Below are positions 16,039 through 17,140 of a stretch of DNA of 35,650 bases, in pieces; position 1 is the first letter of the stretch, and every line of letters starts with the position of its first letter. Position numbers and translations under genes: made by a program. Under the pieces are notes generated by a model, which worked only from the letters and a program-made list of their open reading frames with translations, did no database searches and had not been told where the DNA came from. The DNA comes from Candidatus Saccharimonadota bacterium (GTDB lineage: Bacteria > Patescibacteriota > Saccharimonadia > Saccharimonadales > Saccharimonadaceae). The stretch lies in contig JAFZQB010000002.1 in NCBI GenBank assembly GCA_017552385.1, forward strand, positions 1 through 35,650, in the 5' to 3' direction.

Positions 16039-16992
16039 TTATGAATTTAAGACCCTGATTTTTTTGAAGTTTTTCCCAGTTAAGCCTAAGTTTATGTCTT
16101 CCCATCTGAATGAGACGGTATTAAGCTGGCTAGGGGTAAGAATGACTGACTTGTAGCTGCCGCCGTTCGGTTGGAGTGCGCCGATGCCTACCCAAAATTT
16201 GGCGATGGAAGATTTGGTTGTACCGAGCGAGATGGTAGTACCAGAAGGAAGAGGTTGGTTGAAAGCTAAGATCTTGTCAGGGCGATTCTTGTGGTAGCCG
16301 GTATCTCCTTTCATTGAGAGATAGGCATTGTGAATGCGATAGACCTTTTCTTTCCAAACCGGATCTTCGGTTTGGTCTTTGGTTGGGCGAACATTGAGCT
16401 CTACCATTTTGGCTTCGGATTCAGATAAGTTTGGAAGAGGAAGAGCCGTGGTGCGCTTTTCTAATTCGTTGTTAAATTCTTGGCGAGAAGTGAATTGAGT
16501 TCCGACAGGAGTAATAGTCATTCTAAGGTTTGGCGGCTGATAGGGCTTTAAGTAGTTCATAACGGATTGATATGATTGTAGGTAAGCTGAGACTTCTTCT
16601 GGCGTTAGATTGTCTATAATATAAAGAATCCAGTCATCTACAAAGAAGTCAAACCATACGCCTGGTTCATAGATTTCGCAGACAGGTTTAACATAGTTAG
16701 AATAATAGATTAGAGAGAATAACTCGGCCCAATCTGCCTCGGGGGCTTCATCGAGGCGCCACAGCTTGTATGCTCCATGTAAGAAAGTCAGGTTGATAGG
16801 TTGGTTGAGATTGACGTTGTAATGAACAGATTCTTTGATATGCTGGATAAGCTCTGGTTTTGCGGTGTATTTACGAAATTTTTTCGACAATAAGAGACGA
16901 ACAATTTGCGCTTCCAGATCTGCCTCTGCTTTTGCGTTTAGAGGGGTGTGAAGTTTTTCTAATTCAGTTTTGATGTATTGTTCTGCGTTCAT
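16039..16992 (-). CDS. Unrecognised 317-aa protein downstream of a tRNA-Cys-like element
   Basis: 317 aa from ATG 16992. It is helical and aromatic-rich in the first half (LFSLIYYSNYVKPVCEIYEPG, then FDFFVDDW) and more beta in the second half (SGTTISLGTT, then VSFRWEDINLGLTGKNF). No signal peptide, membrane helix or catalytic motif is recognised, and no class I or II synthetase signature is seen. A GTG at 17019 would add nine residues but lies inside the predicted T arm of the tRNA-like element. The ATG sits 8 bases after that element's CCA and has no Shine-Dalgarno site. Processing at the CCA would leave a nearly leaderless mRNA. The reading frame is intact and long, so it is a real gene. 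Confidence 0.75.
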   Translation of the reverse strand: MNAEQYIKTELEKLHTPLNAKAEADLEAQIVRLLLSKKFRKYTAKPELIQHIKESVHYNVNLNQPINLTFLHGAYKLWRLDEAPEADWAELFSLIYYSNYVKPVCEIYEPGVWFDFFVDDWILYIIDNLTPEEVSAYLQSYQSVMNYLKPYQPPNLRMTITPVGTQFTSRQEFNNELEKRTTALPLPNLSESEAKMVELNVRPTKDQTEDPVWKEKVYRIHNAYLSMKGDTGYHKNRPDKILAFNQPLPSGTTISLGTTKSSIAKFWVGIGALQPNGGSYKSVILTPSQLNTVSFRWEDINLGLTGKNFKKIRVLNS

Positions 16993-16999
16993 AGGTAAC

Positions 17000-17071
17000 T
17001 GGAGATGCGAGGTGATCACAACTGCACCGTTGTAGCCTTGCGAGCTACCACCTGTTCTCGGTCATCGCATC
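17000..17071 (-). tRNA. tRNA-Cys (GCA)-like cloverleaf with degenerate D and T loops
   Basis: 72 nt on the minus strand. A perfect 7-bp acceptor GATGCGA/TCGCATC is followed by T73 and encoded CCA. The anticodon arm is a perfect 5 bp (GTAGC/GCTAC) with a 7-nt loop TCGCAAG placing GCA at 17041-17039. T73 and GCA are both tRNA-Cys identity features. The D arm is a 3-bp stem ACC/GGT with loop GAGAACA, lacking G18-G19. The T arm is GGTG/CACC with loop region CAGTTGTGAT, lacking TTC. Position 33 is C, not T. Both sides of the elbow contact are therefore lost. It could be a divergent functional tRNA-Cys, a specialised tRNA-like RNA, or a tRNA-mimic leader of the gene that starts 8 bases later. Confidence 0.6.
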
Positions 17072-17077
17072 CATTAT

Positions 17078-17083
17078 ATTATA
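17078..17083 (-). promoter_or_regulatory. -10 box of the tRNA-Cys-like transcript
   Basis: TGA-TATAAT on the minus strand. The seventh base downstream is 17071, the first base of the acceptor stem, so the RNA may be made without a 5' leader. Confidence 0.7.
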
Positions 17084-17140
17084 TCATGAAGATAATCTGA
17101 TTATAAAAATATCTACTTCTCTTGTCGGATATTGAGACGT

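Follow-up and report, generated by a model that had tools for sequence, protein, structure and literature searches.

A tRNA-like cloverleaf directly ahead of a PvcA/IsnA-like gene in Saccharibacteria and other CPR bacteria

In the genome of a Candidatus Saccharimonadota bacterium, a tRNA-Cys-like cloverleaf lies just ahead of a gene for a predicted remote relative of PvcA/IsnA, and the same pairing of tRNA and gene, with several amino-acid identities, is found across CPR bacteria, which points to enzymes travelling with their own tRNA. We propose, with a probability of roughly 0.45, that the element is a private tRNA that is excluded from translation and used by its enzyme, probably as an amino-acid donor. 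We are aware of no enzyme family whose genes consistently sit immediately after a dedicated tRNA; a search of one open-access library yielded no report of such a family, and nothing on a tRNA with isonitrile synthases or on tRNA-Cys in Saccharibacteria. If the tRNA is charged, a swappable RNA would set the amino acid, independently of translation, and the PvcA/Dit1 fold would be added to the TyrRS-like enzymes acting on aminoacyl-tRNA; in the regulatory case, a complete tRNA would serve as an mRNA leader across a wide evolutionary range. The donor and the regulatory version are both directly testable in vitro, and the cassette provides an entry point to undiscovered metabolites of CPR bacteria.

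Layout of the element and its gene

The window, i.e. the whole stretch of DNA that was analysed, comprises 35,650 nt (GCA_017552385.1, contig JAFZQB010000002.1, positions 1-35,650) and contains the following features.

17078-17086, minus strand: extended -10 promoter element TGATATAAT, six bases ahead of G1 of the cloverleaf
17083-17078, minus strand: TATAAT hexamer of the -10 box, followed by six bases and then G1 at 17071
17000-17071, minus strand: tRNA-Cys-like cloverleaf of 72 nt, identified by sequence, covariation and R1 model score
17041-17039, minus strand: GCA anticodon of the cloverleaf
17003, minus strand: T73 discriminator of the cloverleaf
17002-17000, minus strand: encoded CCA of the cloverleaf
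16993-16999, minus strand: CCA-to-ATG spacer of 7 nt without a Shine-Dalgarno sequence, read from the sequence
16039-16992, minus strand: ORF of 317 aa (ATG at 16992, stop codon ending at 16039), predicted remote PvcA/IsnA (DIT1_PvcA) relative

A preliminary description had reported the -10 box, the 72-nt cloverleaf with its T73, CCA and GCA, and the 317-aa ORF downstream, and all of these were confirmed on the minus strand. The ATG indeed lies close behind the CCA, at a distance of 7 and not 8 bases, and "head-on" is a misnomer for an arrangement in which cloverleaf and gene have the same orientation. Similarly, the helices had been called perfect, which is correct for the 7-bp acceptor stem (GATGCGA/TCGCATC) and not for the T stem, in which 4/5 pairs form. 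The anticodon loop is TCGCAAG with C at position 33, where U is usual, the D loop (GAGAACA) lacks GG and the T loop lacks TTC.

The window element thus carries the tRNA-Cys identity marks U73 and GCA, as do most Cys-type relatives, and lacks what characterizes a functional elongator tRNA-Cys, i.e. recognition by standard models, U33, G18G19 and TTC. ARAGORN did not call it, the Rfam tRNA model RF00005 missed it even at E = 10, and C33 replaces the U33 that is present in 19/19 canonical tRNA-Cys compared. By contrast, the R1 model scored it at 90.2 bits vs at most about 58 bits for canonical tRNA-Cys. The folding energy of the element alone was no better than that of shuffled sequences (z -0.96) and is uninformative; the proof of the cloverleaf is comparative.

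The best -10 hexamer lies 6-7 bases before G1 in 20/24 Saccharibacterial elements, and in the remaining ones, including that of the window, a hexamer is readable at the same spacing, while most canonical tRNAs in the host genome lie 8-12 bases from their -10 box. Given this spacing, the private transcript would start at base 1 of the tRNA, i.e. at its mature 5' end, without a leader for RNase P. At window positions 865, 3763, 6378, 14806 and 19876, a TATAAT-like box precedes an ATG by a few bases without a Shine-Dalgarno sequence, and leaderless mRNAs therefore appear, from these sequences, to be common in the host genome. Since these window genes look leaderless, a cut after the CCA would leave a translatable mRNA. 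The spacing to the gene can be even tighter: in L047 the CCA overlaps the ATG, and in L176 and L177 T73 is followed by CT-ATG.

Conservation, copy number and amino-acid identity

A profile search over CPR genomes detected the gene in 17/393 genomes of the class and 14/380 of the phylum, i.e. its distribution is patchy. In 11/11 relatives found in genome records, the element lies directly ahead of the ATG. We also used a detector for a 7-bp acceptor stem plus NCC close to the start codon, with mononucleotide shuffles as the null; it was positive in 31/36 CPR homologues vs 0.18 expected from shuffles, in counts that take in related sequences. The preliminary description had named homologues lacking the element and stems lacking covariation as findings that would refute it, and the first of these two tests thus favoured it. 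In L032, an insertion of about 200 nt (198 nt) separates the element from the gene.

The second test was favourable as well. In an alignment of 20 elements (A5), 97.8% of base-pair cells were paired and 14/20 pairs had two-sided changes, with 0/500 shuffles as good; sliding the structure along A5 reduced pairing to 32-46%, and RNAalifold independently recovered the cloverleaf. This conservation and covariation rule out a chance cloverleaf. All Cys-type elements have U73, and the Saccharibacterial elements retain the CCA end; the elbow loops of the Saccharibacterial elements are altered and base 33 is mostly non-U. Positions 33 and 38 covary (Fisher p 0.0003, uncorrected for relatedness), suggesting from the sequences a GNRA-type loop; because a 32:38 pair accounts for the pattern nearly as well, we do not rely on it.

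A covariance model was run over 325 genomes of the class. It separated a high-score group of 76-98 bits, with 14 elements in 13 genomes and 14/14 preceding this PvcA/IsnA-like gene, from a low-score group of 45-58 bits, in which the 17 elements checked were all canonical tRNA-Cys. A 37-bit match (L129:950-1021, G514:C4, minus strand) is truncated, lacks the 3' acceptor strand and is followed by a NUDIX-like ORF with no PvcA-like gene behind it; it is probably a relic after gene loss.

The host genome (G000, 97% complete) contains about 45 tRNAs and, at locus L014, an ordinary tRNA-Cys with the anticodon loop CTGCAAA. The window element is therefore an extra copy, and the earlier suggestion of an unusual sole tRNA-Cys is refuted. 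Canonical tRNA-Cys are also present besides the cassette copy in G201, G177, G613, G027 and the genome of L041, and G135 has another tRNA-Arg(UCU) beside the Arg-type element of its cassette. In this respect, these Cys carriers and the Arg(UCU) type of G135 have the hallmark of non-proteinogenic tRNAs, i.e. an extra copy beside a canonical isoacceptor. Because of these second canonical copies, we reject for the Cys and Arg types that a host tRNA gene happens to lie next to this gene.

The joint loss of both partners of the elbow contact had been taken as a clue; GG and TTC are indeed absent, but the observation carries less weight than was given to it, because several canonical Saccharibacterial tRNA-Cys (L112, L113, L116, L117, L119, L121 and L122) have altered elbow loops as well, with the D loop GAGGAGTTA or GAGTAGTTA and the T loop TGCGA for TTCGA. 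Elbow drift is thus not limited to private copies.

The Cys-type picture given earlier holds at the window; it had not included relatives with other identities or the losses of the anticodon. Outside Saccharibacteria, ARAGORN called Cys-type elements (L046, L047, L050, L176 and L177), an Arg(UCU) element (L052 = L076) and a Met(CAU) element (L053 = L080), and a His(GTG) element with G-1 and C73 (L051) and a Gly(UCC) element with U73 (L057) were read from the sequence. The Met element has A73, the discriminator of Met tRNAs. In the Cys (U73), His (G-1/C73), Gly (U73) and Arg types (G73 with TCT), the discriminator fits the amino acid of the anticodon, as judged by the determinants known for these identities (PMC9976931). 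U73 alone confers Cys identity on minihelices, and the bacterial Cys determinants include G2-C71 and C3-G70 (PMC9976931); at these positions, every aligned Saccharibacterial element has A2-U71 and U3-A70, and so, by sequence, do the other Cys-type elements.

In three Saccharibacterial members (L068, L069 and L072), GGAA or GAAA loops replace GCA, L033 has TTGAAC in place of the anticodon, and L058 has a 67-nt tRNA-like element before the start in which the anticodon arm is a GCC-UUCG-GGC hairpin with no anticodon. Because GCA is swapped for other loops in these members, their anticodon is dispensable and charging by the cognate aminoacyl-tRNA synthetase (aaRS) is doubtful there. A cloverleaf was not found in the 160 bases scanned at L049, L054, L055 and L056, and no tRNA was visible at L178 and L179. 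In a quick tree of the protein, in which L057 sits on a long branch, both of the two deep clades hold tRNA-linked members; therefore, the linkage is probably old.

Predicted fold of the protein

The preliminary description had treated the product of the 317-aa ORF, correctly delimited, as an unknown protein and had not seen its PvcA/IsnA fold. For the window protein alone, Pfam, NCBIfam and PADLOC gave nothing significant. A profile of 25 members matched the isonitrile synthase PIsnA (E 2e-6), and 12/25 members matched PF05141 with E values of 1 or below (the lowest being 2.3e-7); L058 lies above the curated cut-off of PF05141 (31.0 vs 26.4 bits) and the window protein below it. An AlphaFold2 model of the window protein, built from 12 fairly close sequences, had a pLDDT of 73 and was weak at residues 232-268. 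The best Foldseek matches of the model were PIsnA and PvcA (2e-8), with cyclodipeptide synthases (CDPSs) among the weaker ones, and the VIA Z values were 14.2 for PvcA and 13.6 for PIsnA, well above all other entries, of which TyrRS came next with up to 7.6. Altogether, the model has the PvcA/DIT1 (PF05141) fold, and the window protein is, by this prediction, a remote PvcA/IsnA relative with a TyrRS/CDPS-like core.

The predicted fold is shared with PvcA/IsnA/Dit1 over 250+ residues, as is a K...DxAE...Y-PG...SD stretch; by contrast, identity is about 15% or less, and the window family differs in its N-terminal basic region, which has a conserved SKKFRK motif, and in the divergence of its C-terminal half. 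The substrates of the PvcA/IsnA enzymes known so far are free Tyr or Trp and ribulose-5-phosphate, not aminoacyl-tRNA, and we know of no dedicated tRNA gene for PvcA/IsnA/Dit1. With CDPSs and other aminoacyl-tRNA-dependent natural-product enzymes, the protein shares the TyrRS-like Rossmann core and, as proposed here, the use of aminoacyl-tRNA, although its structural similarity to CDPSs is weak. CDPSs draw their aminoacyl-tRNA from the translational pool and, as far as we know, carry no dedicated tRNA.

A homologue on a Rhizobium leguminosarum plasmid (L184:1571-6924) is 24.5% identical to the window protein and directly follows genes for a diaminobutyrate transaminase, a methyltransferase, metK and an MFS transporter; from its gene content, the locus looks like a small-molecule operon. 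The plasmid search returned Rhizobium relatives only. No tRNA was found beside this homologue; together with the six family members in which none was visible, it shows that a tRNA does not accompany every gene of the family.

Candidate functions of the pairing

We propose that the cassette has two parts, a private tRNA that would be transcribed from its own first base and a PvcA/IsnA-like gene a few bases behind it. Cutting of the transcript after the CCA would yield the tRNA and a nearly leaderless mRNA. A cellular aaRS would charge the released tRNA, with Cys in the window and with His, Arg, Met or Gly in relatives; the charged tRNA would be poorly used by EF-Tu and the ribosome, and the enzyme would bind it and take the aminoacyl group for small-molecule synthesis, possibly through a reaction at the amino group like that of isonitrile synthases. 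Charging is suggested by the kept CCA end, by U73 in the Cys types and by the agreement of discriminators with the anticodon elsewhere. Exclusion from translation is suggested by the changes at positions 18-19, at position 33 and in the T loop. A precedent is the non-proteinogenic tRNA-Gly of S. aureus, an extra tRNA in which G18G19 is replaced and which is diverted from translation (PMC4052509). The cassette element is likewise an extra tRNA without G18G19; by contrast, its T loop is rebuilt too, its base 33 is mostly changed and it is fused to an enzyme gene, while the S. aureus tRNA serves the cell-wall Fem ligases and has no such fusion. These signs of charging and exclusion, combined with the TyrRS/CDPS-like fold, make aminoacyl-tRNA donation the leading idea. 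More tentatively, the idea can be extended to a family of enzymes with the isonitrile-synthase fold: each mRNA would begin with a dedicated tRNA, excluded from translation, that supplies the enzyme with its amino acid, and a change of tRNA would give a lineage another substrate (Cys, His, Arg, Met or Gly). The earlier proposal was that the downstream protein uses or senses a non-canonical Cys-tRNA; of this, the Cys type and the linkage hold, and use or sensing is plausible.

The donor model is weakened by the members without an anticodon and the lack of G2-C71 and C3-G70, which lend some weight to readings in which the RNA is not charged; the free substrates of known PvcA/IsnA enzymes and the homologues with no visible tRNA beside them also speak against it. 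In the main rival reading, the cloverleaf would be a folded 5' leader, bound by the enzyme or an aaRS that blocks translation, as ThrRS does on the thrS operator of E. coli; the RNA would then need to be neither released nor charged. We consider this rather unlikely, despite a promoter position that makes the element the 5' end of the transcript, a distance to the start codon of roughly twelve bases or fewer in most members, tRNA ends that overlap or abut the ATG in L047, L176 and L177, and a tolerance of GGAA, GAAA and UUCG loops that befits a structural ligand. An operator needs neither a conserved CCA nor U73, degenerate elements of the His, Met and Gly types would have no use for anticodon-matched discriminators, and the L032 element is about 200 nt from its gene. 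Moreover, while the thrS operator also resembles a tRNA in structure and immediately precedes a coding region, it has no equivalent of the acceptor arm (PMC9976931), whereas the acceptor end with its CCA is among the most conserved parts of the cassette element, and the downstream gene does not encode an aaRS.

It is less probable still that the RNA is an uncharged partner which the protein binds as a scaffold, cofactor or inhibitor; one example would be an RNA that, like an RNA antitoxin, keeps a harmful enzyme in check. The tight linkage of one RNA with one protein, the patchy distribution, the conserved unusual elbow and GNRA-type loops and the basic SKKFRK motif would all suit such a partner; PADLOC had no match, however, tandem-repeat RNA is absent, the CCA is conserved, and the Rhizobium homologue lies in a biosynthesis-like operon without a tRNA. 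An ordinary gene behind a tRNA, whether a mobile element inserted at the tRNA or a gene with the tRNA as a removable leader, is disfavoured as a very improbable reading. It would fit the apparently common leaderless genes of the host and, through transfer, the patchy distribution, but the tRNAs in question are not host tRNA genes but additional copies whose features do not suit translation, and no conserved neighbours were found. We rejected a mobile element or phage, since no phage record matched the protein, no relatives occurred in viral contigs and no defence family matched. Around the cassette, no neighbouring gene or operon recurred widely.

A homologue outside the class (L048/L059, G054:C28) has the Saccharibacterial type of element and a gene split by a frameshift, possibly as the result of transfer and decay or of a sequencing error. 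A contig labelled Clostridiaceae (L040, DUPE01000005.1) carries a Saccharibacterial-type cassette and is probably misbinned. Finally, a tRNA-Cys-like gene (L183:2140-2211, minus strand) lies about 67 nt upstream of a more distant PvcA-like ORF and may represent a further branch of the same tRNA/PvcA-like association.
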